In this document: positions 36,561 through 52,361 of the stretch, in pieces
How positions within the stretch are numbered: the stretch's first letter is position 1
Layout: each line of letters starts with the position of its first letter
Assembly: GCA_016744995.1 (NCBI GenBank)
Contig: JADGDG010000001.1
Coordinates: forward strand, 350,011 to 414,010
Direction of reading: 5' to 3'
Origin: Gammaproteobacteria bacterium
GTDB lineage: Bacteria > Pseudomonadota > Gammaproteobacteria > GRL18
DNA length: 64,000 bases
Made by a program: the position numbers and the translations under genes
The notes under the pieces: model-generated
The model's input: the letters and a program-made list of their open reading frames with translations, nothing else
Databases searched by the model: none
Told to the model about the DNA's origin: nothing

Positions 36561-37074
36561 AGGACACCGTTACCTGAATTGTTCGATTAACCTGATAAGT
36601 ATCATTTCCCCCAGCTGCCGTCACTGTAATTTCTGAGACTCTGGGAGATAGTTGACAATCAACAACATTATGACAACAGTTAGCAGCATTGCTGCAGGTA
36701 CTGCTGCAGGAAAAACTCAAAGTAAATCCCTCAGCAACAAAAGAATGTCCGCTCACCCCAATGCAGCTATTATTATTTACTGCAAAATTGTCATCACTGG
36801 CAGCAACTGTCGCTATAGCCCATTCAGAACCACTAAGTGCCGTATAATAAGCTCTGCTCTGCTGAACATTCAAGGCCGATGTACTGCTGGTTGTGGTATT
36901 TAAAGTCACCATAGCCACACCAATGCCAGCTAAAGCCACCATGATAAATATGGCCCCCGGAAGAGAAAAACCATGGGAATTTTTAATGGGTCGCCATCTA
37001 TTAATAGTTGCAGATTTTTTTACCTGTGCCTTTTTAAAAAGAGGGCTGAGATATTCAGTTTTAATTGCTTTCAT
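36547..37074 (-). CDS. mshP: MSHA biogenesis protein MshP
   Basis: 175 residues. The prepilin-like GFSLPGAIFIMVALAGIGVAM segment lies at ~35-55 after a basic leader. YYTALSGSEWAIA resembles the MshP/PilX ArAGxEW block. A cysteine-rich central part (CSSTCSNAANCCHNVVDC) and an antiparallel C-terminus follow. Processing would need PilD-type peptidase, not seen here. The start shares the ATGA overlap with the mshO stop, and its end overlaps mshQ. Confidence 0.82.
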   Translation of the reverse strand: MKAIKTEYLSPLFKKAQVKKSATINRWRPIKNSHGFSLPGAIFIMVALAGIGVAMVTLNTTTSSTSALNVQQSRAYYTALSGSEWAIATVAASDDNFAVNNNSCIGVSGHSFVAEGFTLSFSCSSTCSNAANCCHNVVDCQLSPRVSEITVTAAGGNDTYQVNRTIQVTVSYDGS

Positions 37075-37904
37075 GGCTGATTCTCAACAAAAGCCTGCTG
37101 TAATAAATTCACCCTTTCACCCTGAGCACTGATTTCTATCTGCAATGTCACTAATGCCGGGCGAGTTAAGGTACCGGGGTTATAAGTAAAGCGGCAATTG
37201 GAAATATGATTAGCAAGCAAATGATCCCCACTAAATACAGGAGGCTCATTATCTGTATCACTAAAATTGTAATTCTCACTTAACCACAATTTACCTGTCC
37301 CTAAATTACAGCTGAAAATCTGTGCTTTATCAACGATCATAAACCGCTGCTGGGGTGAATTCAGAGTAAAATGATGGTCAACAAAGGTCAACTGAGTAGC
37401 ACTTTTTGTTTTCAGAGCTGAAATATTACCACCTCTATAAGCATCGGCATCATTAATACCATTACCCAGATTATAAACAACCAGACAATTTGATTCATTC
37501 AATCGACCGCAGCGAGTATTATTAGTTTCTCCCGCATCCACGCTGATATCTGAAAGATTACTCAGGGGTTTAAGAGGATCGATAAAAGCGGTTGTCTGGG
37601 TAATATCAAAGCTATTTTTGTCATAACGACCACCGGCAATGGTATGTAATAATTCAATGGTACGGGCATCAGAACTGATGCGAATGCTATTTGGCAAGGC
37701 ATGATGAATTGCCCGATTCATGCGATGCAGAGTCAGTTCGGCAATATCAACCAGCTCTGCCCGTCGCTTCATATCACTAAATGATTTCATTGGTGTGGTG
37801 ATAATATTCACCACCAGCATAGAAATAATTCCAGTGATCACCATGACGGTTATCAGTTCAACCAGAGTAAATCCATTGTTATAATTATTGTTATTTTTCA
37901 TCAC
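37071..37904 (-). CDS. mshO: MSHA biogenesis protein MshO-like prepilin
   Basis: 277 residues. The prepilin cleavage site and helix are NGFTLVELITVMVITGIISML. The mature part has the MshO-type RRAELVDIAELTLHRMNRAIHHALPNSIR block and a C-terminal beta region. It acts as a minor pseudopilin for MSHA pilus assembly or tip formation. It lies between mshD and mshP in the canonical order. Confidence 0.85.
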   Translation of the reverse strand: MMKNNNNYNNGFTLVELITVMVITGIISMLVVNIITTPMKSFSDMKRRAELVDIAELTLHRMNRAIHHALPNSIRISSDARTIELLHTIAGGRYDKNSFDITQTTAFIDPLKPLSNLSDISVDAGETNNTRCGRLNESNCLVVYNLGNGINDADAYRGGNISALKTKSATQLTFVDHHFTLNSPQQRFMIVDKAQIFSCNLGTGKLWLSENYNFSDTDNEPPVFSGDHLLANHISNCRFTYNPGTLTRPALVTLQIEISAQGERVNLLQQAFVENQP

Positions 37905-37913
37905 TGGCAGCCC

Positions 37914-38387
37914 TTAATAATTCGTTCGATAGGCTATGATGGGTATATCTGTCCCTAAACCAGCATGACTGACCACAATAGTGATTTTTTTGGCTGCTCT
38001 ATTGCTTAGCTCAGCAGCGCAGATAATATTGGTACACAGAACAACCGTTACTGCAACCGTATAACCCGGCATATCAATCATATTACCAAATTGATCCTCA
38101 ATACTGCTGCCTGCAGTAATGGCATTATAATCATCAACATCATTATAGTTACTTCGGCCTGAGGCCGAACCTGTCGGTGTATAGGCCTGCATCATAATTT
38201 CATCCATATAACTCTGGGCTATTGCCAGAGACTGCGCTCTTACCATTGGATCAGCACTGGTTCTGGTGGTGCCGAGAAATAAAGCCATCACACCGCCAAC
38301 CGCAATCGTAATGATCACCATTGAAACCACTAATTCAATAATAGTAACACCTCGGCAAAGAGTGTAGGACATTCTATTCATGCACAT
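37914..38387 (-). CDS. mshD: MSHA minor prepilin MshD-like
   Basis: 157 residues. The motif RGVTIIELVVSMVIITIAVGGV is a type IV prepilin site, followed by AQSLAIAQSYMDEIMMQAY, typical of MshD/PilV-type minor pilins. It overlaps the end of mshC by 14 bases and is followed after nine bases by mshO. Several ATGs crowd the start (38387, 38381, 38372), so the leader length is uncertain. Confidence 0.82.
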   Translation of the reverse strand: MCMNRMSYTLCRGVTIIELVVSMVIITIAVGGVMALFLGTTRTSADPMVRAQSLAIAQSYMDEIMMQAYTPTGSASGRSNYNDVDDYNAITAGSSIEDQFGNMIDMPGYTVAVTVVLCTNIICAAELSNRAAKKITIVVSHAGLGTDIPIIAYRTNY

Positions 38388-38820
38388 AGCCCGTTACCTG
38401 TTCTACCACCACATTATATCCACCCACTGAAAAAGAATAAGCTCCGGTTGATATGGCCTCACCACTAGCCTTATAGGTAAAATTTTGCACCGGAGTAATC
38501 TCAGAAATATCACTATCCTGATAATTAACCTGCCCGACAGGATGCTTCACAGGAGTCCCGGAACAAGTTAAAGAAGAGTAATACAGCTCATAGCTATCAG
38601 CAGTCAGACAAATAGTGACATCATTTTGACTGGCAATAGCAATTTTTTGGGCAAAGCGGAAGGCAGAAAGTACTTGCTGATGATATTGAGTGTCCCTAAA
38701 GGTAGCATTATTAAAGAACTTTGCAGAGCCCACTGCTGCCAGAATGCCCAGAATGACGATAACCGTCACCAGTTCGATCAGTGTAAACCCCTGATTGTAT
38801 TGATGGCTTTTAGATTGCAT
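38374..38820 (-). CDS. mshC: MSHA minor prepilin MshC-like
   Basis: 148 residues. The prepilin site is NQGFTLIELVTVIVILGILAAV, followed by AKFFNNATFRDTQYHQQVLSAFRFAQKIAIAS, the usual MshC/GspH-like sequence. It is the first gene of the C-D-O-P-Q run. The genes that normally precede it (mshA, mshG, mshE) lie 10 kb away beyond an oppositely oriented signalling block. Confidence 0.83.
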   Translation of the reverse strand: MQSKSHQYNQGFTLIELVTVIVILGILAAVGSAKFFNNATFRDTQYHQQVLSAFRFAQKIAIASQNDVTICLTADSYELYYSSLTCSGTPVKHPVGQVNYQDSDISEITPVQNFTYKASGEAISTGAYSFSVGGYNVVVEQVTGYVHE

Positions 38821-39035
38821 ACCGATTGAACCAATTGCTATGATTGTTTAATTCTAGCATTAAATAAGAATTTTACCGTGTTGCCTGTCAATCTAATGCA
38901 AAAATCTGCAATAATTTCTTTTAAGCTGTACGGCAATCCCCACAACTTCTGCACCTGCTTTATAATCTGATACAAGTAATATAGAATTAATTAATTTTCA
39001 ACGCATAAAACTGAATGAACAGGTGATGCTTAATA

Positions 39036-39707
39036 ATGAAACCAACCGTCTCAGAACTTTTTTTAAAACATGTGCATTTATTTTCATCCATACCTGATGA
39101 ACATTTAAAAGAAATTCAAAAACTTACAACAATTCGAAGCTTCAAAAAAAACACCTTCATTGTCACTCAAGGGGACGATTCTCAATCTTTGTATCTAGTC
39201 TTAAGCGGGCATCTTAAAGTGATTGTCAATGATGAAGACTCTGGTAAAGAAATTATTCTTAAATTTTTACACCATAATGATTATTTTGGTGAGTTGGCTT
39301 TATTTGATTCCGCACCACGCTCGGCATCCGTCCTGACGTTGGAAGAAACTCAGGTCGTTCTGCTGCCGGCCGGTCATTTTATGGCTTATCTGAATAAACA
39401 TCCGCAAATTGCCCTGTCCATATTGCCCTCACTGGCAAATCGAACCAGAATGTTATCAGAGCACATATACAAACTGGCTTCTTTAGACACCTATGGCAGA
39501 GTCGCAGATTTATTGAGAGATCAGGCTAAAAAAGATGCAGCAGGTATTTATAAAACACCTAAAATGACTCACCAGGATATCGCCAATGCAGTAGGAGCAT
39601 CCAGAGAAATGGTGACCAAGATACTTAAAGAATTAAAAGTTGGAAAATATATTGATATCGTTAATAAACAGATTATTGTGAACCGTGATCTGCCTAAATA
39701 CTGGTAA
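39036..39707 (+). CDS. Crp/Fnr family transcriptional regulator
   Basis: 223 residues. The cyclic-nucleotide-binding-like domain at ~10-130 has FIVTQGDDSQSLYLVLSG and YFGELALFDSAPRSASVLT. The GELALF/RSA phosphate-binding cassette is intact, so a nucleotide ligand is plausible. There are no N-terminal cysteines for an iron-sulphur cluster, so it is not Fnr itself. The HTH at ~165-210 contains MTHQDIANAVGASREMVTKILKEL. It is divergent from mshC with 215 bases between, so it may control the msh run. A TATAAT at 38961 lacks a matching -35. Confidence 0.9.
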   Translation: MKPTVSELFLKHVHLFSSIPDEHLKEIQKLTTIRSFKKNTFIVTQGDDSQSLYLVLSGHLKVIVNDEDSGKEIILKFLHHNDYFGELALFDSAPRSASVLTLEETQVVLLPAGHFMAYLNKHPQIALSILPSLANRTRMLSEHIYKLASLDTYGRVADLLRDQAKKDAAGIYKTPKMTHQDIANAVGASREMVTKILKELKVGKYIDIVNKQIIVNRDLPKYW

Positions 39708-39844
39708 CTTTATTAAAATATCCTAATCGGTAATAGCTCCTCAATTAAATGGTATTTTTTCACAGAAACAGAGTTTGGTTTTAGTTAATATAATAGACAA
39801 GAAATTAACCAAACAAGCTATTAACTCACAGGGAGAGAGCTATT

Positions 39845-40021
39845 ATGAACCAGCTTGATATTGATATTAGACGGTATGAAGAAAGGCTATTCAGCGCAGT
39901 GAAAAATAACTTACCAGAAGTGGTTATTCAGCAATATAATTGTTTTTTAGGGCAGAAACTTTCTGAGAAAGAACATCTCAGAATTAGTGTTAAAAATGCT
40001 CATTGCAGAGACAATCATTAG
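39845..40021 (+). CDS. Small ORF of unknown function (58 residues), intact copy
   Basis: ATG at 39845 with GGGAGAG about nine bases upstream. The product is polar, without a membrane helix, and contains RYEERLFSAVKNNLPEVV and FLGQKLSEKEHLRIS. A frameshifted relative of this gene lies at 48388-48572 and keeps the same residues, which supports a real coding sequence. Nothing is known of its role. A 7-base inverted repeat (TTTGGTT/AACCAAA at 39774 and 39807) brackets a TATAAT just upstream. Confidence 0.6.
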   Translation: MNQLDIDIRRYEERLFSAVKNNLPEVVIQQYNCFLGQKLSEKEHLRISVKNAHCRDNH

Positions 40022-40102
40022 AGATTGAAATGAACCTTAGCATACTCATCAATAATAGAGTTTTTTCTCTTAAGCACCAATCTATGGTTAGGTTTTAAAT
40101 AA

Positions 40103-40154
40103 CAATAGTCTTTGTTTGGAAATAATAGCAATAGTCTTTGTTTGAAAATAATAC
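40103..40154. repeat. 26-base tandem duplication in the leader of the REC gene
   Basis: CAATAGTCTTTGTTTG plus ten more bases at 40103-40128 is repeated at 40129-40154 with two mismatches. It lies in a 277-base gap (40022-40298) that otherwise shows no gene. Confidence 0.85.
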
Positions 40155-40298
40155 CAACACAGACAAGTTCTCAGATGACCACTATTAAAAAAAATTAATG
40201 AATTTATCAGCTATTTATTCTTTGACCTTGCAGAATAATATACTGTCAGCTATTTTTAATTGACATAGGTTATTTTGCACAGACTAAAGGATTTATTA

Positions 40299-41423
40299 AT
40301 GAGCAGCAAACCCTGTTTATTAGCAGTTGATGATGAAGAGATGAATTTAAACATCATTAATGATTTACTTGGAGATAAATTTAATATTCATCCTGTCAAA
40401 AATGGCCAAAAATGTCTTGATAGTCTGCAGGAAAAAATTCCGGATATTATCTTACTGGATGTTATGATGCCGGTTCTGGATGGCTTGGAAACCTGTAGAA
40501 AAATACGAGCTAATCCTTTATTTCAAGATATTCCTGTTATTTTTGTTTCAGCTTTAGCATCACCGAATGAACGAATGAATGGCTATGAGGCTGGTGGAGA
40601 TGATTATCTTCTCAAACCCTTTGATGAAGATGAGCTAGTTGCTAAAATAAATTTATTACTCAAAAATAAAATACAAATAAAAAAGGAAATTGAACAAAAG
40701 GACTACGCAACAAAAACAGCAATGACCTCTATGGTGAGTGCTTCTGAAACAGGACACCTCATCTGTTTTATGCAATCAATTTTAACAATCAATAATATTG
40801 AAGCACTGCATAAGTTAATCTCAGATACCCTGACTCAATATGGCCTGGAAGGCTGCGTGATGTTAAACCACTTAGAGGCTCCTGATTTCTTCTTTTCAGA
40901 TAGTAGGATCCGACCCATTGAACAGGACATTCTCAAAGAAGCCTCGACCCATACAAAAAAAATTATTGAATTTTCAGGGCATGCAATTTTTAATACAGAA
41001 CATGTCAGTATTTTGATCCGGGGAATGCCCGGTGATAAAGAAAAGGCGGGGAGGTACAAAGATCACCTGGCAATGTTAATTGATTCTATAGAAGCAAAAC
41101 TCATACAATTTATTGCTGACAATAATGAACGCCAACATTATCAGACATTAAGACAAACGGTTGAGTCGGTTTCAAAAGAGTTGGAAATGGTCAACCAATC
41201 TACTCAGGAACAGCGAAGACTTAATACTATTGTCCTTGGAAATCTGATTCAAAATGTTGAAGGGTCATTTCTAAATCTAGGTCTTGAAGGTTCCCAGGAA
41301 GATGAATTAATTGGATTAATCACTGATGCTGAAACAGAAAGCGACCAAGTGTATAAAAATGGAGAACAATCAGCAAAAACATTTGAACGAATTATCATTA
41401 AGCTCAATCAGCTTTTAAATTGA
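40299..41423 (+). CDS. Response regulator (receiver plus unknown C-terminal helical domain)
   Basis: 374 residues from the ATG at 40299, which has AAAGGA at good spacing; a longer TTG frame lacks one. The receiver at ~5-122 has [16 protein letters not shown] and a Lys in YLLKPF. Residues ~145-275 form a domain I do not recognise, and ~280-374 is helical or coiled-coil. There is no DNA-binding, GGDEF, EAL or HD-GYP output. Such proteins may act through protein contacts. The binding-protein gene follows after 16 bases and the whole run to 48271 is in one direction. Confidence 0.85.
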   Translation: MSSKPCLLAVDDEEMNLNIINDLLGDKFNIHPVKNGQKCLDSLQEKIPDIILLDVMMPVLDGLETCRKIRANPLFQDIPVIFVSALASPNERMNGYEAGGDDYLLKPFDEDELVAKINLLLKNKIQIKKEIEQKDYATKTAMTSMVSASETGHLICFMQSILTINNIEALHKLISDTLTQYGLEGCVMLNHLEAPDFFFSDSRIRPIEQDILKEASTHTKKIIEFSGHAIFNTEHVSILIRGMPGDKEKAGRYKDHLAMLIDSIEAKLIQFIADNNERQHYQTLRQTVESVSKELEMVNQSTQEQRRLNTIVLGNLIQNVEGSFLNLGLEGSQEDELIGLITDAETESDQVYKNGEQSAKTFERIIIKLNQLLN

Positions 41424-41439
41424 TTGTGGACAAGATGGA

Positions 41440-42735
41440 ATGAATCGTTTTTACCATGATCTTCAAGATCTTTCAATCATCAGATCTCTTATTTTTATTT
41501 TGATGCTGCTAGGCAGCATACTGCTTATCTATTCAATGCTATCACCCCAGGAAGTGATACGAGTGGGTGTTTTGCACTCACTGACAGGCACAATGGCTAT
41601 TTCAGAAAAACCAGTAGCTAATGCCACATTATTAGCCATTAAGGAACTCAATGCCAATGGTGGCTTATTAGGCAAAAAAATTCAGCCCATCATCGTTGAT
41701 GGCCAATCAAAAGATACTACATTTGCCAAAGAAGTTAAGCGACTGATAACTGAAGAAAAAGTAGATGCCATATTTGGTTGCTGGACTTCATCGTGCCGGA
41801 AAACAATTAAACCCATTGTGGAAAATTATCAGCATATTTTTTTCTATCCCGTTCAATATGAAGGCCTGGAACAATCCAGTAATATTATTTATACTGGGGC
41901 TGTCCCCAATCAACAGATCATTCCTGCTTTACGATGGTCAATGGATAACATCGGACAACGTTTCTTTCTTGTCTCATCAGATTATATTTTCCCCCGCGCA
42001 GCCAATCAAATTATCCATGATGTTGTTAAAAAAAATACAGCAGAAATTGTAGGTGAAGAATACATTCCTTTGACTCCACTGAATGATCAAGAACAAATTA
42101 TCAATATAAAAAAAATGGTTCAGAAAATTATCAAAGCGCAACCTGATGTTATTATTAATACAATTAATGGTAACAGCAATATTCACTTTTTTGAACAGCT
42201 ATTTTCCGCAGGCATCAGTGCAGATAAAATACCGGTGATCTCATTGAGTATTGGTGAGAGTGAATTACAATATCTTGATAAAACAATAATGAAAGGACAC
42301 TATTCCGTATGGAATTATTTCCAAACGATCAACAGCGAACAAAACTCTAAATTTATTGCTGCCTATCAACAAGAGTTTGGCCATAACAGTGTCACCTCTG
42401 ATCCCATGGAGTCAGCGTATTTTAGTGTCTATCTCTGGGCAGCAGCAGTCAAAGCTGCACATAGTAGTCAGCCAATCTCGGTTGTAGAAGCGATAAAAGG
42501 TCATGGATACTATGCACCTGAAGGTATGGTCACTATAGACAAAAAAAATCTGCATACCTGGAAAACAGTTAGAATTGCTCAGATTAATAAAAATGGGCAG
42601 TTTAAAATCATCTGGGATTCCATACACCCGGTCAAACCAAAACCCTATCCGGCAAGTCGAACAAAAGCTGAATGGCAAGAATATGTAGAACAGTTGTTTC
42701 AACAGTGGAACAGTCATTGGGTGGCGCCTCAATGA
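41440..42735 (+). CDS. UrtA-like periplasmic binding protein (amide/urea type)
   Basis: 431 residues. An N-terminal signal-anchor (IIRSLIFILMLLGSILLIYSML) is followed by a type I binding-protein fold of the UrtA/AmiC kind: VGVLHSLTGTMAISEKPVANA, ELNANGGLLGKKI, DAIFGCWTSSCRKTI, YPVQYEGLEQS, YIFPRAANQI. No transporter subunits accompany it. Its stop overlaps the start of a sensor kinase (ATGA), so it very likely serves that kinase as a ligand-sensing partner (inference). The uncleaved anchor, if real, would keep it on the inner membrane. Confidence 0.85.
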   Translation: MNRFYHDLQDLSIIRSLIFILMLLGSILLIYSMLSPQEVIRVGVLHSLTGTMAISEKPVANATLLAIKELNANGGLLGKKIQPIIVDGQSKDTTFAKEVKRLITEEKVDAIFGCWTSSCRKTIKPIVENYQHIFFYPVQYEGLEQSSNIIYTGAVPNQQIIPALRWSMDNIGQRFFLVSSDYIFPRAANQIIHDVVKKNTAEIVGEEYIPLTPLNDQEQIINIKKMVQKIIKAQPDVIINTINGNSNIHFFEQLFSAGISADKIPVISLSIGESELQYLDKTIMKGHYSVWNYFQTINSEQNSKFIAAYQQEFGHNSVTSDPMESAYFSVYLWAAAVKAAHSSQPISVVEAIKGHGYYAPEGMVTIDKKNLHTWKTVRIAQINKNGQFKIIWDSIHPVKPKPYPASRTKAEWQEYVEQLFQQWNSHWVAPQ

Positions 42736-45122
42736 CCACATTCAACTGGATAAATAACCTACCTCAACCCAAAAAAATGCATCATCGTATTTTATTGTGG
42801 CTTTTGATAGTTGCAAGTATTCCCTTGCTGATCAGTAATTTTTTAGGTTTACAAGAATCTATTTCAATGGTTAAAGCACAATCATTACAGCGAATGGAAC
42901 TTTTGGCGAAAGAAAAAACATATCGCATAGAAAAAGTTTTGGATGAGACAGTAGAAAATCTAAAAATGTTATCTGAAAATCAGATAATTATTGATACTCT
43001 GGGTCATTTGAATCGCCATTATAAGCTTGAGGAGCCTCTTAAAATACGTCACAATGATCCAGTAGTTGCTTATACCAATCAATATCTTTCAAATATGAAA
43101 AATCATCATTCTGAATTTTATGATATTTTTATTGTCACCGCAAAAGGAGATATTGCTTTAACTGTCAGACATGAATATGACCGGAATATCAACCTGTTCG
43201 ACACAAGATATTATTCAGGGGGGATCAGTCAGGTCTTTAGATTATCAAAGATCCTGGATAATGTAGCAATATCAGATTTTAAGCGTTATCCTCCTTCAAA
43301 AATTCCTTCACTTTTTTTAGCCCATTCTGTGTCTTATGAAAAAAAATATTCTGGAACAATCATTATTCAGCTAAACCCCAATTTTCTACAGGCAATAACC
43401 TCTGACTATGCTGGACTGGGTAAAACTGGAGAAATTATTCTTGCAAAAAAGAGTGAAAAAAATGCACTATTGCTTATTCCCATAAGATATAACCAAAAAT
43501 CAGCATTTAATCAACAAGTAGTTTTTCAGAAAGACAATATTAAACCAATTATCCATGCTTTAAATGGAAGTCATGGCAGTGGAGTTTTTAAAGACTATCG
43601 TGATGTGGATGTTATTGCCGCATGGAATTATATCCCCAGTCTTCGCTGGGGGATTGTGGTCAAAATTGATGTTTCAGAAGCTTTAGCACCAATAGAATAT
43701 TTAAAAAACAAATACGCAATTATTGTGCTCATCACATCAATAATGATTATTTTTAGTGCAATTTTGCTGGCACAGAGTTTGTCTCAGCCAATTAAAAGAC
43801 TTGATCATTCCATTCGAAAAACATTGAAATATGGATGGAAAAAAGGAGATGAAGTAGAACTTTTAAGTAATAATACCAATGAAATAAATGCTCTGTCTCA
43901 ATCATTTAACTTACTAATGGAAAAAAATGCAGAGAGTGAGCTGCAACGTAATAATACCGATATTGAAAAAGAAAAAATTAACCGAACATTAGAGACTATC
44001 GTGACACATGCTACAGATGGTATTTTTATAATTAATGAAAATCATATTATTACTTTTTTCAACCCTGAAGCAGAACAACTCTTTGGTTATAAAGCAGAGG
44101 AAGTATTAGGAAAAGATATGAATATTCTGCTTCCAAAACCAAACCATAAAAATCATAAAGTCTATGTTCATGGCTTCAGGAATGCAGCAAGTAACAACAT
44201 AAAAAAAATTGTCTCAAGACGCAATATGCCTATTATGGGGCAGCATAAAAATGGACACATATTCCCTGCTGATGTCGGTATTTCAAAAACCTATTCAGAA
44301 GATGGTCAATGGACATTTACTGCATTTATTCGTGATACCACGGATCAACATGCTATCGAAGAAGCCTTGAAAGAAGCTAAAGATAATGCAGAAAAAGCTA
44401 ATCAGGCAAAGTCAACATTTCTTGCCAATATGTCTCATGAATTGCGTACACCCATGCATGCTATTTTGAGTTATGCTCAAATGGGCTTTAAACGAGCGGA
44501 TAAGGTCAGCATTGATAAGCTCAAATATTATTATGAAAATATTGATATCAGTGCACGGCGTCTGTTAATACTTCTTAATGATCTATTAGACCTGTCAAAG
44601 CTTGAGTCAGGAAAAATGGAACTTAATATGGCAGAACATAATATTAAGGATATTGTTAATGCCTGTCATTCAGAACTTTCAGCTAAATTATCTGAATACC
44701 ATTTATCTTTAGTGGAGACATTAGTGGATGGTGAGACTTTTAAGCTAATGATGGACAGCCAAATGATAGTATTATGTGATGGTCAGCGCATCCACCAGTT
44801 AATTATCAATTTACTTTCCAATGCCATTAAATTTTCACCAGAAGGCAGTCAGATAACTGTGGTTTATTCAATTGTTGAAAATAAATACATTAAACTGCAG
44901 TTCATTGATCAGGGTGTTGGTATTTTACCTCATCAGCTGGAAACAATCTTTGATAAGTTTATTCAGAATGACAGGCAGAGAAATGGAACAGGTATGGGCA
45001 GCACAGGTTTAGGTCTGGCTATTTGTAAAGAAATAATCAGCCTTCATCAAGGTAAAATTTGGGCTGAACATAGTGGTGCTGCAAACAAAGGTGGGGTTGT
45101 TTGTTTTACACTACCCATTTAA
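42732..45122 (+). CDS. Membrane sensor histidine kinase (dCache-HAMP-PAS-HisKA-HATPase)
   Basis: 796 residues from ATG 42732, which overlaps the previous stop by four bases. Helix 1 lies near 20-40, an extracytoplasmic Cache-like sensor covers ~45-345, and helix 2 with HAMP follows (AIIVLITSIMIIFSAILLAQ, then SQPIKRLD). PAS lies at ~420-545. The HisKA site is [20 protein letters not shown]. The ATPase has LLSNAIKFSPEGS, DQGVGILPHQ and STGLGLAICKEI. Its HisKA region is closely like that of the kinase at 46283-48271, so the two are paralogues. It may respond to the ligand of the UrtA-like protein. Confidence 0.92.
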   Translation: MTTFNWINNLPQPKKMHHRILLWLLIVASIPLLISNFLGLQESISMVKAQSLQRMELLAKEKTYRIEKVLDETVENLKMLSENQIIIDTLGHLNRHYKLEEPLKIRHNDPVVAYTNQYLSNMKNHHSEFYDIFIVTAKGDIALTVRHEYDRNINLFDTRYYSGGISQVFRLSKILDNVAISDFKRYPPSKIPSLFLAHSVSYEKKYSGTIIIQLNPNFLQAITSDYAGLGKTGEIILAKKSEKNALLLIPIRYNQKSAFNQQVVFQKDNIKPIIHALNGSHGSGVFKDYRDVDVIAAWNYIPSLRWGIVVKIDVSEALAPIEYLKNKYAIIVLITSIMIIFSAILLAQSLSQPIKRLDHSIRKTLKYGWKKGDEVELLSNNTNEINALSQSFNLLMEKNAESELQRNNTDIEKEKINRTLETIVTHATDGIFIINENHIITFFNPEAEQLFGYKAEEVLGKDMNILLPKPNHKNHKVYVHGFRNAASNNIKKIVSRRNMPIMGQHKNGHIFPADVGISKTYSEDGQWTFTAFIRDTTDQHAIEEALKEAKDNAEKANQAKSTFLANMSHELRTPMHAILSYAQMGFKRADKVSIDKLKYYYENIDISARRLLILLNDLLDLSKLESGKMELNMAEHNIKDIVNACHSELSAKLSEYHLSLVETLVDGETFKLMMDSQMIVLCDGQRIHQLIINLLSNAIKFSPEGSQITVVYSIVENKYIKLQFIDQGVGILPHQLETIFDKFIQNDRQRNGTGMGSTGLGLAICKEIISLHQGKIWAEHSGAANKGGVVCFTLPI

Positions 45123-45150
45123 TTGATGGGCAGGCACTAACTACAACAAT

Positions 45151-46266
45151 ATGAGTATCAATCATGGGCAATACAAGAGTATGAAAATATCTTCTCAAAA
45201 TGAATTAGAAGGTCAATCAATAGAACTCTATCAGTCACAAATTTTAATTATTGATGATGAACCTATGAATGTGGACATAATGACTGATTTGTTAGAGACT
45301 GAAGGTTATGAAAATATTACCAGTGAAACCAACCCTATTAAAGGCTTAAATCTCTATGAAAAGAGAAGCTTTGATATTATTTTACTTGATATTAATATGC
45401 CGGAGTTAGATGGTTTTGGTGTCATGAAAAAAATTAAATTCATGAATAAACCATTGGTACCTCCCATACTTATTTTAACCGCTTTACACCGACAGGAGAT
45501 TTGTAACCGGGCATTAGAAAGTGGTGCGACAGATTTTATTAATAAACCCTTCAATTCAGATGAAGCACTCAATAGAATAAAAAATTTATTAAACAGTTAT
45601 CATACAAAAAAACATTTGATTGAAATAAATGATAATCTGGAAAACCTGGTTAATATTCGAACTAAAGAATTAATAGAATCAAAATTAAAGGTCATCCAAC
45701 ATCTTGGTTTTGCTGCAGAGTATCGTGACACCGAAACTGCAGCACACACCATCCGGGTTGGTGAATATTCACGATTGCTGGGAAAAAAACTGGGGCTGGA
45801 AAATAAAATGGTGGATTTACTGCATCAAGCTGCTCCCCTGCATGATATCGGTAAAATTGGCATTCCAGATGCTATTTTACTTAAGCCTGGAAAATTTGAA
45901 CCCGATGAGTGGAAAATTATGAAAACTCATACCAGTATCGGAGCAGAAATTTTAGAAAATGATAATGATCCTTTAATTGTTATGGCTCGAAGTATTGCTT
46001 TGAACCATCATGAAAAATGGAATGGCAAGGGGTATCCCAATGGCTTGTCAGGAAATAATATACCCATAGAAGGTCGAATTGTTATGTTAGCTGATGTTTA
46101 TGATGCTCTAACGATGGTCAGACCCTATAAAGCTGCATGGACAACTGAAGAAACTATTGCTTTTATTAAAAAAGAGTCCGGTACTTCATTTGATCCTGAT
46201 ATTGTTCATCTGTTTCTAGGCATAATCGATGATTTTTTAACCATACGTCAAGAATGTTTGGATTGA
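45151..46266 (+). CDS. Response regulator with HD-GYP domain (cyclic-di-GMP phosphodiesterase)
   Basis: 371 residues (361 from a second ATG at 45181). The receiver at ~30-150 has IIDDEPMN, IILLDINMP and a Lys in FINKPF. The HD-GYP domain at ~175-360 has [25 protein letters not shown] and LADVYDALTM, so all metal-binding signatures are intact. It sits between two paralogous kinases, either of which may phosphorylate it. In the msh context it would lower cyclic-di-GMP, which MshE senses (inference). Confidence 0.94.
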   Translation: MSINHGQYKSMKISSQNELEGQSIELYQSQILIIDDEPMNVDIMTDLLETEGYENITSETNPIKGLNLYEKRSFDIILLDINMPELDGFGVMKKIKFMNKPLVPPILILTALHRQEICNRALESGATDFINKPFNSDEALNRIKNLLNSYHTKKHLIEINDNLENLVNIRTKELIESKLKVIQHLGFAAEYRDTETAAHTIRVGEYSRLLGKKLGLENKMVDLLHQAAPLHDIGKIGIPDAILLKPGKFEPDEWKIMKTHTSIGAEILENDNDPLIVMARSIALNHHEKWNGKGYPNGLSGNNIPIEGRIVMLADVYDALTMVRPYKAAWTTEETIAFIKKESGTSFDPDIVHLFLGIIDDFLTIRQECLD

Positions 46267-46282
46267 ACATCAATTTTATAAA

Positions 46283-48271
46283 ATGAAAATCAATAGATAT
46301 TTTATTTTTTTTATTGTTTTTATTCTTCTCATTGGTGGAACATTTGTTAGTGTCATGAAGGCACAAATTCAAGTCCATAAACTTGAAAAAGAAGCCTATG
46401 ATAAAAGTCTGATGTCATTTAATTTAACCAGACAGAAAATTGAAAGCTATTTAAGCAATCTACAGGATAAAATTACAATTAAATCTTATCAGTATCAGGA
46501 TGAACTAATAAAAATATTTCAAAATGCCGATGATAATGACGAGTTACTAGAGGAAATACAGCATAAAATAAAAAAAGAACTTCCTAATGTCAATTTAACA
46601 ACTCTGGCTGATGAAAATGGTGAAATGATTATTACTGACTTTGATGGTTATATTAATGATATTTGCCAGAAGAATTTAGTTGATTTTTCCAAATCTAATC
46701 GCTTTGAAATCAGGATCCATCCTAACTCACTTCAATATCATTTTGATATCATGGTTCGATATAAGATCCCAAAGAAAAATATCTCTGGAATATTTTTTAC
46801 CTCATTTGTTTCTGATGGCTTAAAAGAGATATTAAAACAGGGTGAAATTGCTCAAAACAAACTATTATTAATGTTTAATCCAATTCCTGACTTGATTGAA
46901 GTGGACTCAAGTGGCAACCGTCAACAACTTAATCGTGAAATAAAACTCAGTGCCAGTGAGATTAATCGAATTTCTATCCGCGAGACTATAAATAATACCT
47001 CATGGACATTGGTGAATTTGCCAGCAGAGGATCTTCTGGTAAATGAAAAAATGAGAATTTATGTTATTAGTTTTTTTGAAACATTATTTTTATATATTAT
47101 TTCAGGAATATTATTTTATATTATTTATAAAGAGATAAAGAAAAATAAGAAAATTTCTGAGCGCTATCTTTTATTTTTAGAAAAAACAGATATTGCCTTT
47201 CTGATTGTTAATAATAAAGGCGTGTTAAAATTTGCTAATGCTGCATTAAAAAACATTTCAGAGCTTAAGAATATAGAAAACATGATTGGGAAACATGTTT
47301 TACAATGGATGAATCATGAAGTTTGGGAAAAAATCAATGGCAGTATTCAAGAGGCTGATAAAAAAGCTAAGGTGATAGCACTGCCCATTAAACTGCAAAG
47401 AGAAAATGGAGAGGTGCAATTATTATTGGTGGATATTTTTGCTGACTATAGTGAAAAACAAACATTATATGCTGTTTATTGTAAAGATGTCACCAAGGTT
47501 AACCAAATTGAAAAACTCAAAATTGAGCGACAGGCAGCAATTTTGTCTGAGAAAGCAAGCACTGAATTCCTGGCTAATATCTCTCACGAATTACGAACTC
47601 CAATGCATGGCATATTGAGTTATGCGGCAATAGGTATTAGACGTGTCAATAAAGCCCCTTTAGAACAATTAGAAAAATATTTTACGAATATAAATATCAG
47701 CGGTACACGATTATTAGGCTTACTCAATAATTTGCTTGATTTATCAAAACTGGAAGCTGGTCAAATGCCAATGGATTTTATGGCATGTGATTTAAAATCC
47801 ATTGTCAAAGACAGTATTATGGAGCAGAAAAGTACAATTGATGAGCTGGAGCTGCAGTTGCTTGTTAACTATGATGAAACGATTGATACCAAAGCTGAGA
47901 TGGATGCAATTCATATTTCACAAGTTATTGCTAATTTATTATCAAATGCCATTAAATTTACCCGTGAAAAGGGGGCTATTAAAATTTCATTTTTCTCTGA
48001 TCATCTAATGCTTCAAGATAGAAAAATTGCTGCCATTTCTTTTAGTATAACTAATGAAGGTGAAGGGATTTCTAAAAGTGATTTAACTCTTATTTTCGCT
48101 AAATTTAAACAAAGCAGTGATTTGTCTGCCGGAACTAAAATGGGCAGTACAGGACTCGGGCTATCAATTTGTAAAGAAATCATACAGGCACATCATGGTG
48201 TCATCAGTGCACAGTCTGAACTGGGAAAAAACACCACATTAATTATGACTATTCCCAAAAAGCAACCTTAA
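46283..48271 (+). CDS. Membrane sensor histidine kinase (PAS-HisKA-HATPase)
   Basis: 662 residues. Helix 1 is at ~5-25 (YFIFFIVFILLIGGTF), an extracytoplasmic region covers ~30-255, and helix 2 is ~262-285 (FFETLFLYIISGILFYIIY). PAS spans ~300-410. The HisKA site is FLANISHELRTPMHGILSYA. The ATPase has LLSNAIKFTREKG, NEGEGISKSD and STGLGLSICKEI. It is a paralogue of the kinase at 42732 but has a different sensor. The gene is the last of the plus-strand block. Confidence 0.91.
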   Translation: MKINRYFIFFIVFILLIGGTFVSVMKAQIQVHKLEKEAYDKSLMSFNLTRQKIESYLSNLQDKITIKSYQYQDELIKIFQNADDNDELLEEIQHKIKKELPNVNLTTLADENGEMIITDFDGYINDICQKNLVDFSKSNRFEIRIHPNSLQYHFDIMVRYKIPKKNISGIFFTSFVSDGLKEILKQGEIAQNKLLLMFNPIPDLIEVDSSGNRQQLNREIKLSASEINRISIRETINNTSWTLVNLPAEDLLVNEKMRIYVISFFETLFLYIISGILFYIIYKEIKKNKKISERYLLFLEKTDIAFLIVNNKGVLKFANAALKNISELKNIENMIGKHVLQWMNHEVWEKINGSIQEADKKAKVIALPIKLQRENGEVQLLLVDIFADYSEKQTLYAVYCKDVTKVNQIEKLKIERQAAILSEKASTEFLANISHELRTPMHGILSYAAIGIRRVNKAPLEQLEKYFTNINISGTRLLGLLNNLLDLSKLEAGQMPMDFMACDLKSIVKDSIMEQKSTIDELELQLLVNYDETIDTKAEMDAIHISQVIANLLSNAIKFTREKGAIKISFFSDHLMLQDRKIAAISFSITNEGEGISKSDLTLIFAKFKQSSDLSAGTKMGSTGLGLSICKEIIQAHHGVISAQSELGKNTTLIMTIPKKQP

Positions 48272-48387
48272 TGCATTAACTGTTTTAGTCTGTAACTCAG
48301 GGGAATCAAGCCCACCTCTCTCTGCTGTTTTTAGCTATTATTTTCAAAGATCAGGAGCGGCAATATACACCCCCCTTAATTAAATGC
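48272..48387. other. Intergenic region, no gene seen
   Basis: Short region between the last kinase and the decayed small ORF; the whole gap to mshA is 329 bases. It includes a C-rich tract near 48370-48375. No promoter or RNA gene is evident. Confidence 0.4.
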
Positions 48388-48572
48388 TATGAAGAAAGAT
48401 TACTCAACGCAGTAAAAAACAACTTACCAGAAGTGGTTACTCAGCAATAAATTATTTTTTAGGACAGAAAGTTTCTGAGCAAAAGCATATCAGAGTTAGT
48501 ATTAATGATGCTCAACAGATGTATGGCGGGACAAGACAAGGAAAGGACAATAAAAAAAGATGGAAGAATTAA
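48388..48572 (+). pseudogene. Decayed, frameshifted copy of the small ORF at 39845-40021
   Basis: YEERLLNAVKNNLPEVVTQQ is read in frame from 48388, then a stop. After a one-base deletion relative to the intact copy (CAATATAATTG versus CAATAAATT), the frame resumes as FLGQKVSEQKHIRVSI. The 5' end and start codon are missing. The C-terminal tail differs (NDAQQMYGGTRQGKD), so the copies were not identical at first or have recombined. It is in the same orientation as the intact copy. Confidence 0.75.
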
Positions 48573-48590
48573 TAATTAATTCTTCCATCT
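48551..48590 (-). terminator. Intrinsic terminator of mshA (perfect 16-bp palindrome)
   Basis: AGATGGAAGAATTAAT-A-ATTAATTCTTCCATCT at 48558-48590 is a perfect palindrome, ten bases past the mshA stop. On the minus strand it is followed by seven T. It overlaps the end of the decayed small ORF on the other strand. Confidence 0.8.
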
Positions 48591-48600
48591 ATAATGATAT

Positions 48601-49128
48601 TTAAGGCGCAACCGGATCAGTAATCGTTATTGTTCCTGTAGAAGACTCATACCTCATAAGTCCCCTGGTACCACCGGTATTCCATGTAAATGTACCGGTA
48701 GAATAGTAATCACAACGAGTGCCGCTTGTCCTCCAGACCCAGTCAGAATCTGAAGTCTGGCTACCCGTAGCATCTGCATGAATACTGGGTGCATTGGTTA
48801 ACAACCCATTCCATAAATCAATGCAATTGAGCGTTGCACTGGTATTATCAATCGGCCAGCCATCAGCATTAGCATAAACATCTCCTGCAGCCGTACCATA
48901 ACCTTGTACACGTCCAGCACTTCCTGTGCTATTTGCAATCCACTGTGCATGGGCTAATGCAATCCCAGAACCAAAACCACCTGTAACGCCTTTAAAGGCA
49001 GAAATATGAGCATCATCAGTGACATCAATAAATTTAGGTAAAGCAGTTGCTGCCAGGATCCCTAAAATCAGAATGACTGTAATTAATTCAATCAAAGTAA
49101 AACCGGCACTGGACTGTATCTTCTTCAT
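48601..49128 (-). CDS. mshA: MSHA major pilin MshA-like
   Basis: 175 residues. Prepilin site [28 protein letters not shown], followed by [27 protein letters not shown], the MshA pattern. Two cysteines (in LNCIDLW and TRCDYY) probably form the C-terminal disulphide loop. It follows mshG on the same strand after 200 bases and ends in its own strong terminator, as expected for a highly expressed pilin. mshF and mshB, usually present between mshG and mshA, are absent. Confidence 0.88.
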
Positions 49129-49328: not shown

Positions 49329-50546
49329 TTATTGCATCTTGCCAATTAAATCCCACATCGGCATAAAAATACCCAAGGCCATAACCAAAACCATACCAGC
49401 AATCGCCAATATGAGAGCCGGTTCTATTTGAGAACTTAAGAATTTAATCTCATAGTTCACTTCATCTTCATAAAATTCAGCAACTTTTATCAGCATTTCA
49501 TCCACCTGACCCGTTTCTTCACCCACAGCAATCATTTGCAGTACCAGGGGTGTAAACAAGCCCGTTGCCGTCGCAGTATTGGTCAGATTATCTCCCCGTT
49601 CAACACCACTTCTCATGCTTTTCACTCGATCAGCCACAAACACATTGCCCACAGCATTAGCCACTAAATTCAGCGCCTGAACTAAGGGTACACCTGCCTG
49701 CTGGGTCAGAGCAAAAGCACGACAAAAGCGTGCCAGAGTTGCCTTGCGTATAATTTCACCAATATAAGGTATTTTAAATTTTGCTTTATCAAAGAAAAAA
49801 TGACCTGATTCCGTACTGATATATTGTCTAAGGGCAATAATAAAAATTGCCACAGAGACCAGCATCCAGGGCCAGTAATTGACAAACAGATTGGAGGTTG
49901 CCAGCAAAATCTTGGTATAGATGGGCAGCTCCAGACTCATTTTAGAAAACACACCGGCAAATTTGGGGATCACAAAAATATTTAAAGCCACAAAAGCAGC
50001 CGTAAGAAAGAGCAACACAAACGTAGGGTAGCGGGTTGCTTCCTTAATTTTATCTTTAATCATTTTATCCCGCTCCAGATAAAATGATAATTGTTCAAAT
50101 GCATCATCCAGACGCCCGGTACTTTCCCCAACTTTCATAACACTGAGAAATACGGGAGGAAAAACCTCTGGATATTTTCCAAGTCCCTTTGACAGAGGCT
50201 GCCCGGATTCCAGTTGCTTAATGCTGTACTCCAGGATTTCTTTAAGGTATTCATTCTGAGTGGTCTGAGCCAGACTACTCATTGCCCGGGTAATTGGGAT
50301 ACCGGCTTTAAACAAAGTACTCATTTGCTTAGCGAATAAGATTAGTTCTTCTATTTTCGGCTTGCCCATGCCAAGTTGGCGCTTAAGGCTGATAGTTTTT
50401 TCTACAACCTTTGTAGGACTGATCTCAATGGGTGTAATACCACTATTCATCAGATGAGTTGCCAGCTCATCCTCTGAATTTGCTTCGACAGTATTTTCAA
50501 CTGCTTCTCCGCGAGCTGTGCGACCTTTATAAAAATATCTTGCCAT
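49329..50546 (-). CDS. mshG: MSHA biogenesis platform protein MshG (GspF/PilC family)
   Basis: 405 residues, the normal family length. Two GspF domains are at ~65-190 and ~265-395: FAKQMSTLFKAGIPITRAM, LKEILEYSIKQLESGQPLS and the second FCRAFALTQQAGVPLVQAL. Three membrane helices include FVLLFLTAAFVALNIFVI and ALILAIAGMVLVMALGIFMPMW. It is the inner-membrane platform that couples the MshE ATPase to pilus growth. It lies 60 bases after mshE. Confidence 0.93.
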   Translation of the reverse strand: MARYFYKGRTARGEAVENTVEANSEDELATHLMNSGITPIEISPTKVVEKTISLKRQLGMGKPKIEELILFAKQMSTLFKAGIPITRAMSSLAQTTQNEYLKEILEYSIKQLESGQPLSKGLGKYPEVFPPVFLSVMKVGESTGRLDDAFEQLSFYLERDKMIKDKIKEATRYPTFVLLFLTAAFVALNIFVIPKFAGVFSKMSLELPIYTKILLATSNLFVNYWPWMLVSVAIFIIALRQYISTESGHFFFDKAKFKIPYIGEIIRKATLARFCRAFALTQQAGVPLVQALNLVANAVGNVFVADRVKSMRSGVERGDNLTNTATATGLFTPLVLQMIAVGEETGQVDEMLIKVAEFYEDEVNYEIKFLSSQIEPALILAIAGMVLVMALGIFMPMWDLIGKMQ

Positions 50547-50606: not shown

Positions 50607-52361
50607 TTAAATATTATCCTTATCATGTTCTTCAATAGTACCCGCCAGTTTCAGAACTTCTTCGATTGAGGTAATACCCTGAATGGCCAGGGCCAGAGCA
50701 CTATTTACCAAAGGTTTATATCCAGGGGCTGTTCGTGCTTTTTGTACAAATGCTTTAGCATCATCGGCACGGAATGCATCAGCCAGTTGTTCATTGATCT
50801 CCAGAATTTCATGCACGCCCTTTCGGCCTTTATAGCCTGTATTGTTACAAAGATGACAACCATTTCCCTGAAAAAACTGATTGTTCTCGATCCGTTCACT
50901 AACTGCACCCTGCAGCCAGCTCATTTCATGCTCATCTAATACATGCTCTATTTTACAGTTTTCACATATTTTACGCACCAGCCGCTGTGCCACAATTGCC
51001 TGTAATGATGTGGCAATCAAATAACCTTCAATTCCCATATCCTGCAAGCGATAGACTGAGCTGATGGCATCATTGGTATGCAGGGTTGACAGCACCATGT
51101 GTCCCGTCATCGCCGAACGGACGGCAATATCAGCTGTTTCAGCATCTCGCATTTCACCAATGAGGATAATATCTGGATCTTGTCTTAAGGCCGTTCTCAG
51201 GACATTGGAAAAGCTCAGTCCAATTTTAGTATTGATCTGTACCTGACTGATCCGTTCTAAACGATACTCAACCGGATCTTCTGCAGTAATTATTTTCTTT
51301 TCACTGCTGTTAAGTTCATTTAAAGCTGCATATAAAGTAGTAGTCTTACCACTACCTGTTGGTCCAGTCAGCAAAACCAGACCATGAGGTCGATGAATTG
51401 ATTTTCTAAAGCGCTCTAAAACGGCTTCATTCATACCAATATCATCCAGATTTAAAATGCCGGCACTTTGATCCAGCAAGCGCATCACCACTGACTCACC
51501 ATGCTGAGTTGGCATGGTAGACAGACGTACATCGATAGAATGATTTTTTATTTTAATATGAAAACGTCCATCCTGAGGCAATCGTCTCTCTGAAATATTC
51601 AGCCCGGACATTAATTTTAAACGTGAAACAAGCGCCGCAACAATCCGTTTTTCATTCATCACCTGCTCATTAAGCACACCATCAATACGCATGCGGATGC
51701 GTAATACTCTTTCATCAGGTTCAATATGGATGTCAGATGCTTGAACCTGCAAGGCATCTTCAAAAATAGTCTGCAACAGACGCACTACCGGCGCATTATC
51801 CACATCATCACTTTGAGCCAATTGATCCAGATCAATATCCGTTTCAGATAACTCTTCATCCAGTTCCTCAACCAGCGAAGTAATTTCTTCTTCCCGACGA
51901 TAAACCGTGTCCATGGCAGCCAAAAGATCCGCTTCACGGATCAATGCCAGACTCATTGGACGTTTTAATATTTTATGAATATCATCGTAGGCAAAAATAT
52001 CAGAGGGATCAGCCATGCCGACCAGAAGACCCGTTTTTCTATCTGCCAGAACAATCGCACGATAACGTCTGGCCAGTGTTTCCGGTAATAAACGAATAAC
52101 ATCTTTTTGATACTTATAATGTTTTAAATCAATGAAGGGTACATTAAGCTGACGGGATAAAAAATCCAGAAATTTTTCTTCACTTATATAGTCATTTTCA
52201 ATCAGCACCTGCCCAAGTTTTCGACCGGAGGATTTCTGATCAGCCAGAGCTGCACTTAACTGCCCCTCGGAGATCAGCTTATGATCAACCAGCAAATCAC
52301 CGATTCGTATTCTTTTTTTAGGGTGTTCCAATGGCTTTAATTCCTTATTTTCACGACTCAT
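50607..52361 (-). CDS. mshE: MSHA extension ATPase MshE with cyclic-di-GMP-binding MshEN domain
   Basis: 584 residues. The N-terminal MshEN domain (~17-170) has RIGDLLVDHKLISEGQLSAA, then Q-KSSGRKLGQVL, matching the known cyclic-di-GMP-binding pattern of V. cholerae MshE. The ATPase core has Walker A GPTGSGKTTTLYAALNEL, DPDIILIGEMRDAETA and TLHTNDA, and a C-terminal four-cysteine zinc motif (CENC and CHLC pairs). Pilus extension should therefore respond to cyclic-di-GMP. The upstream genes (mshH-N set) are not present here; a DUF455 gene lies directly upstream. Confidence 0.94.
   Translation of the reverse strand: MSRENKELKPLEHPKKRIRIGDLLVDHKLISEGQLSAALADQKSSGRKLGQVLIENDYISEEKFLDFLSRQLNVPFIDLKHYKYQKDVIRLLPETLARRYRAIVLADRKTGLLVGMADPSDIFAYDDIHKILKRPMSLALIREADLLAAMDTVYRREEEITSLVEELDEELSETDIDLDQLAQSDDVDNAPVVRLLQTIFEDALQVQASDIHIEPDERVLRIRMRIDGVLNEQVMNEKRIVAALVSRLKLMSGLNISERRLPQDGRFHIKIKNHSIDVRLSTMPTQHGESVVMRLLDQSAGILNLDDIGMNEAVLERFRKSIHRPHGLVLLTGPTGSGKTTTLYAALNELNSSEKKIITAEDPVEYRLERISQVQINTKIGLSFSNVLRTALRQDPDIILIGEMRDAETADIAVRSAMTGHMVLSTLHTNDAISSVYRLQDMGIEGYLIATSLQAIVAQRLVRKICENCKIEHVLDEHEMSWLQGAVSERIENNQFFQGNGCHLCNNTGYKGRKGVHEILEINEQLADAFRADDAKAFVQKARTAPGYKPLVNSALALAIQGITSIEEVLKLAGTIEEHDKDNI

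Follow-up and report, generated by a model that had tools for sequence, protein, structure and literature searches.

The window analyzed here is a 64,000-nucleotide stretch of a gammaproteobacterial genome (GRL18; assembly GCA_016744995.1, contig JADGDG010000001.1, positions 350,011 to 414,010, in our numbering G000:C35:350011-414010; genome of 5.18 Mb in 65 contigs), in which a run of plus-strand genes lies between minus-strand msh pilus genes. Five genes of this run encode a receiver (REC) protein, a UrtA-like binding protein (UrtAL), a histidine kinase (HK1), a REC-HD-GYP protein and a second kinase (HK2). They probably form a self-contained UrtAL/HK1 co-receptor two-component system, likely ending in the degradation of cyclic di-GMP (c-di-GMP) and inserted among the msh genes in a lineage-specific manner, and we give this reading a probability of about 0.7. 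It is based on the gene order, the domains and catalytic motifs, the modeled dCache fold of HK1, the phylum-wide pairing of UrtAL relatives with receptors, and the other location of the same genes in the relative G005. The mechanism is of a known kind, binding-protein co-receptor signaling, and would work like LuxPQ.

Genes were called from open reading frames (ORFs) and their translations, which were scanned with Pfam and NCBIfam. The five genes follow one another on the plus strand: the REC protein (40275..41423; Response_reg; the database copy has 374 amino acids, which places the start at 40299), UrtAL (41440..42735; Peripla_BP_5, 494 bits), HK1 (42732..45122; a dCache domain between two transmembrane segments, then PAS, HisKA and HATPase), REC-HD-GYP, a predicted c-di-GMP phosphodiesterase (45151..46266; Response_reg and HD_5), and HK2 (46283..48271; two transmembrane segments, a rare sensor domain, HisKA and HATPase). 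With spacings of 16, -4, 28 and 16 bases, the genes probably form a single transcription unit. The four-base overlap between UrtAL and HK1, noted in an original prediction made from the sequence of the window, was confirmed: it is the ATGA at which HK1 starts (42732) and the stop codon of UrtAL ends (42735). The exact overlap recurs in 13 of 35 related UrtAL-receptor pairs, including the copy in G005; 36 loci were tried with start codons chosen by a script, and one gave no pair.

The pairing of UrtAL with a receptor was evaluated using a phylum set of 50 UrtAL places (E ≤ 1e-100), two of which are this cassette, in the window and in G005. A dCache receptor lies directly downstream in 40 of them: 34 kinases, 2 GGDEF-EAL proteins (direct pairs at L046 and L158), 2 chemoreceptors, 1 nucleotide cyclase and 1 that is cut off. 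The remaining ten comprise four urtBCDE loci and six other contexts. The earlier suggestion that ligand capture is coupled to the kinase thus looks supported, and what generalizes is the pair of binding protein and receptor, which is kept far beyond this genus. At one place (L161), a UrtA domain is fused to a kinase and a receiver in one 913-amino-acid frame that has no N-terminal hydrophobic segment. The tree did not show a single clade for the sensor-type UrtAL proteins, as their split from transporter UrtA is weakly supported (76/85) and two kinase-linked rows (L011 and L161) group with transporter UrtA.

Both kinases have their H, N and G2 boxes, and the receiver aspartates are present in both the REC protein and REC-HD-GYP; Pfam found no receiver domain within HK1 or HK2. 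REC-HD-GYP matches HD_5 with 110.7 bits, and its HD and GYP motifs were found, with HH..KGYP intact; on the NosR-family model it scored 159.5 bits against a cut-off of 400. The sensor domain of HK1 (about residues 40-325) is periplasmic and flanked by its two transmembrane segments. By sequence it matched nothing in the PDB below E 0.8, and its predicted structure matches solved tandem-Cache domains, which gives it a tandem Cache fold. The sensor region of HK2 had nine matches among 4265 candidates, of which three are the window protein itself and three are attached to GGDEF outputs. The first ATP-lid box of HK2 reads NEGEGI (NEGKGI in the HK2 of G006, DQGVGI in HK1; the usual box is DxGxG), and ATP binding by HK2 may be altered through it. 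Within a family sample of 24 genomes, which includes the window's own genome G000, HK2 was found at E ≤ 1e-120 only in G000, G005 and G006.

The AlphaFold2 model of the REC protein (predicted local distance difference test 88.2, predicted template modeling score 0.56) shows a receiver, a long helix, a small alpha/beta domain and coiled coils. For its second half, Foldseek and VIA-align returned lists taken up by receiver-domain matches, and no output domain was recognized. Orthologues occur in G005 (73%) and G006 (69%). In G006, the REC gene is followed by HK2 (62%) at another locus, without UrtAL, HK1 or HD-GYP, and this pair suggests that HK2 serves the REC protein. The five genes might accordingly be two systems in one operon, UrtAL-HK1-HD-GYP and REC protein-HK2, joined by chance or for integration; a paralogue of the REC protein in G000 (61%) also lies, by eye, in a similar neighborhood without HK2. 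Against this, G005 has all five genes in the identical order, so that in neither of the two genomes with the full set have the parts been separated. We consider two systems a serious possibility, at clearly less than an even chance.

To locate the five genes relative to the msh operon, msh loci were compared in the family sample. MshE was searched at E ≤ 1e-150 and MshO at E ≤ 1e-15, and matches were obtained in 12 and 11 of the 24 genomes, respectively, G000 included. Loci from nine genomes besides G000 were compared; the matches in G020, G021 and G022 were left out, and G017 (MshE only 57%, no further msh match) was excluded from the msh-site counts. The mshA-mshC interval is contiguous and N-free in six relatives (G004, G006, G009, G012, G014 and G019) and split between contigs in G011 and G005. 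The five-gene unit is absent from the interval in all six. In G006 and G012 the interval holds, on the opposite strand, only a Crp/Fnr-family regulator (87%) and a 58-amino-acid ORF; in G004 and G019 it is a gap of 82 and 64 bases; in G009 it contains a 413-amino-acid AAA_14/DUF4143 protein, and in G014 a 586-amino-acid ORF without a Pfam match. The Crp gene also adjoins mshC in G005 (89%), and a Crp homologue occurs elsewhere in G003, where mshE and mshO were unmatched at the limits used. The original prediction had described one plus-strand cassette between minus-strand mshE/G/A and mshC/D/O/P/Q. Every gene it lists was found, with the strand and order given there, but the run is two things: Crp and the 58-amino-acid ORF are features of the msh site in some members of the genus; the five-gene signaling unit was seen at mshA-mshC only in the window, as an addition. 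Crp was rejected as a member of the cassette on the evidence of G006 and G012.

Of the relatives examined, G005 is the closest (MshG 93%, MshO 90% and MshA 87% identical); the MshE of G006 is equally close, but its MshG (84%), MshO (47%) and MshA (65%) are not. In G005, the five genes occur in identical order at C127:2122-10066, with formate-dehydrogenase-type genes upstream (Molydop_binding and FdhD-NarQ) and a V/A-type ATPase block downstream (ATP-synt_D and ATP-synt_ab). When 17 window proteins were compared with this 41,919-base contig, nothing besides the cassette itself matched. The flanking genes are found in G000 on contigs C6 and C12, and msh lies on C35. Between the window and G005, the synonymous distance is 0.64-0.71 for four cassette genes and 0.56 for the REC gene, 0.47-0.59 for ten neighbors (Crp, the 58-amino-acid ORF, mshA, C, D, O, P, Q and G, and a DUF455-like gene named by eye), and 0.16-0.38 for four formate dehydrogenase and ATPase genes. 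The non-synonymous distance is 0.136-0.258 for the cassette against 0.036-0.135 for the ten neighbors. The REC proteins of G005 and G006 are 77% identical, compared with 73% between the window and G005, which is opposite to the order seen for MshG. This divergence, measured on the sequences, fits separate histories of the cassette and its surroundings, via transfer or an old duplication; fast evolution of the cassette genes, the REC gene above all, is also possible.

These comparisons bear on the original prediction, in which the cassette would serve as a local switch dedicated to the MSHA pilus and its HD-GYP protein would lower the c-di-GMP needed by MshE. The c-di-GMP-binding domain of MshE was confirmed (MshEN; 69.9 bits on the NCBIfam c-di-GMP motif, whose cut-off is 38), the motifs of the HD-GYP protein are intact, and in V. 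cholerae elevated c-di-GMP leads to more MshA pili on the surface and MshE binds c-di-GMP (PMC4624765). The comparison of related msh loci that the prediction had proposed showed no conserved linkage, since the cassette is missing from all six contiguous intervals, and the genomic half of what the prediction had named as evidence against itself, the same cassette in an unrelated locus, is found beside the formate dehydrogenase and ATPase genes of G005. The cassette also lies on the strand opposite to msh. Across G000 there are 21 HD_5 (HD-GYP-type) matches, so the presence of one near msh is weak evidence for MSHA control. Around the other 49 UrtAL places, the retrieved sequence, which extends 6 kb to both sides in only 20 of them, showed no mshE or mshG (E ≤ 1e-4) apart from PilT/PilU-type ATPases at L150. 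After the comparison of the relatives' msh loci, the switch was rejected as the leading reading, and we regard it as improbable. The unit probably entered the msh operon by an insertion specific to this lineage, and its link to the pilus is likely incidental; an effect in trans, reducing piliation, is still conceivable for the unit, as for every HD-GYP protein of G000.

A trace of the insertion may be found in the 58-amino-acid ORF. Its intact left copy (39845..40021, plus strand; no Pfam match) stands beside the Crp gene (39036..39707, plus strand; cNMP_binding and HTH_Crp_2), and a decayed second copy, absent from the original prediction, lies at the right edge of the cassette (48388..48513, plus strand). 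The two are identical at 108 of 126 bases, and the matches of the left and right copies to G005 (105/127 and 99/126) are below this value. The decayed copy, which has two in-frame stops, was also recovered independently by a protein search. In the window, the five-gene unit is thus bracketed by direct repeats, which suggests insertion; the bracket would suit integration by recombination at the ORF, or insertion into a tandem duplicate. The ORF is found in six of the 24 family genomes, with three copies in G003, where the msh genes are unmatched at the limits used; its family (L162 and L163) has no Pfam match and stands beside Crp in several species. By eye, both contig ends in the mshA gap of G005 share an inverted element (GGCGACAACTAG), and one of them resembles a transposase tail.

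The best PDB match of UrtAL is 8tg1, named only as an extracellular ligand-binding receptor (E 1.5e-119); hits to the urea-binding proteins 7s6e, 8hic and 7s6f have E values of 1e-87 to 1e-85, and AmiC (1pea) gives 187 bits. Hydrophobic windows begin at residues 8-19 of the N-terminus and no lipobox was seen by eye, so UrtAL might be tethered to the inner membrane beside HK1. That UrtAL is a stray urea-transporter binding protein with the kinases as mere neighbors, as its 462.6 bits on the urea UrtA model TIGR03407 and the label "urea ABC transporter binding protein" on most of its named database relatives would have it, is very unlikely, given that this score is under the cut-off of 492.75, that none of urtBCDE lies beside it in the window, that G000 has a separate transporter UrtA (570.7 bits, 39% identical to UrtAL) followed by urtB, C, D and E, and that 40 of the 50 UrtAL places precede a dCache receptor.

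For the co-receptor system, we infer the ligand class, the docking, the phosphotransfer partners, the direction of the c-di-GMP change and the mode of insertion from the data above. The probable ligand of UrtAL is a small solute resembling urea or an amide, captured on the outer side of the inner membrane; once loaded, the protein would close on the dCache domain of HK1. This docking would shift HK1 between its kinase and phosphatase states, and HK1 would phosphorylate REC-HD-GYP, likely altering the breakdown of c-di-GMP. For HK2, whose sensor domain is of another, uncommon type, we predict the role of a second input; the REC protein encoded first in the unit is predicted to serve as a phosphate sink or a protein-binding output.

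Several results weigh against this proposal. HK1 scored 34.6 bits on dCache_1 (E 1.8e-8), under the curated Pfam cut-off of 45, which the partners at L046 (51.7) and L086 (58.1) pass. The N-termini of the sensor-type relatives L142, L152, L154 and L159 resemble ordinary cleavable signals, making the anchor uncertain, and the transporter UrtA of G000, which also bears on the anchor, has a plain signal without RR. Among 22 kinases, the distance-matrix rho of UrtAL is 0.40 with dCache and 0.37 with the kinase core; over all 36 pairs it is 0.64, and within the kinases dCache is not singled out. As the distance matrices do not discriminate, co-evolution was rejected as proof of docking between UrtAL and dCache. 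An HD-GYP protein lies within 6 kb of UrtAL in 5 of the 50 places, two of them this cassette, the fetched stretches often being shorter; at a random site in G000 the chance is about 5% (21 matches x 12 kb / 5181 kb). HD-GYP is thus rare near UrtAL and close to chance, so the HD-GYP step is not general to the pair, and HD-GYP was rejected as a general UrtAL partner. Finally, the gap between mshA and the 58-amino-acid ORF in G005 is split between contigs, and a second cassette copy is possible there.

A wider claim is more tentative, and we place it just short of an even chance: UrtA-derived proteins would be a large family of membrane-tethered co-receptors for dCache receptors of every output type, with dCache as a docking platform and not a ligand pocket, and the cassette in the window would be a mobile copy wired to c-di-GMP degradation.

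LuxPQ and TorT-TorS are couples of a binding protein and a sensor kinase. The window resembles them in having the binding-protein gene beside a kinase with a two-transmembrane periplasmic sensor and no transporter genes; it differs in that the binding protein is of the UrtA/AmiC kind (Peripla_BP_5), HK1 and HK2 lack a receiver of their own, and the output includes a separate REC-HD-GYP. HK1 falls outside the LuxQ family proper, with 148.5 bits on NF041947 against a cut-off of 1200. UrtAL belongs to the same family as the urea ABC transporter protein UrtA but has no adjacent permease or ATPase genes and stays under the TIGR03407 cut-off. AmiC of the amidase operon, a related protein, senses instead of transporting, is cytosolic and acts on an antiterminator, whereas UrtAL carries a hydrophobic stretch at its N-terminus and is encoded just ahead of a membrane kinase. 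RpfG is a phosphodiesterase of the REC-HD-GYP type; the window protein shares the two domains and the catalytic motifs, but its upstream input would be a binding-protein/kinase pair. NspS-MbaA and ScrB-ScrC are GGDEF-EAL systems controlled by binding proteins. They share the control of c-di-GMP turnover by a binding protein, but the route in the window would run via a kinase to HD-GYP.

The original prediction knew of no described system of this form, which was too strong. Binding proteins that activate kinases, chemoreceptors, c-di-GMP enzymes and Ser/Thr kinases are described (PMC9602780), so that binding-protein control of c-di-GMP enzymes is a described mechanism class, and according to PMC11113362, characterized couples of binding protein and kinase are gene neighbors in 10 of 11 cases. 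Peripla_BP_5 is named in a table row among chemoreceptor domains (PMC8547431). No description of a UrtA-family protein that pairs with interchangeable dCache receptors turned up in the open-licence papers searched.

The closest relatives of UrtAL whose neighboring genes were read are mostly receptor partners, although named proteins of this group mostly bear urea-transport labels. If the co-receptor reading is true, many urea-transport annotations in environmental bacteria would have to be corrected, and ligand screening of a single binding protein could be informative for kinases, chemoreceptors and c-di-GMP enzymes alike. For the msh operon, a tempting but weak causal story is removed, and the mshA-mshC junction is seen to collect unrelated genes.

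The msh genes themselves are all on the minus strand: the MshA-type major pilin (48601..49128; prepilin N_methyl), MshG (49329..50546; T2SSF), the MshE ATPase with its c-di-GMP-binding N domain (50607..52361; T2SSE and MshEN; NF053729), and mshC, D, O, P and Q (31746..38820; N_methyl in mshC, D and O). The names follow from domain type and position in the gene order. Seven of the eight (all but mshQ) were scanned with Pfam, which gave no match for mshP; the NCBIfam scan of MshE, MshA and MshC showed no msh-specific model. The order C-D-O-P is kept in the six relatives with contiguous intervals, and the mshQ matches are partial or on the opposite strand in some.

The mshA-mshC junction varies by species (window 38821-48600; L049, L051, L052, L053 and L048), containing Crp with the 58-amino-acid ORF, AAA_14/DUF4143, the 586-amino-acid ORF, hemerythrin-LuxR and transporter-like genes, or nothing. 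The mshE of G004 (L054 10301-13540) consists of two parts separated by about 1.5 kb, which looks like an interruption. In G006, a long inverted-repeat-like stretch was seen by eye upstream of the REC gene (L050 8220-8900). In G000, the V/A-type ATPase block on C12 (L096; 5371-8982) adjoins a phage-type tail-sheath gene (Phage_sheath_1 and Phage_sheath_1C).

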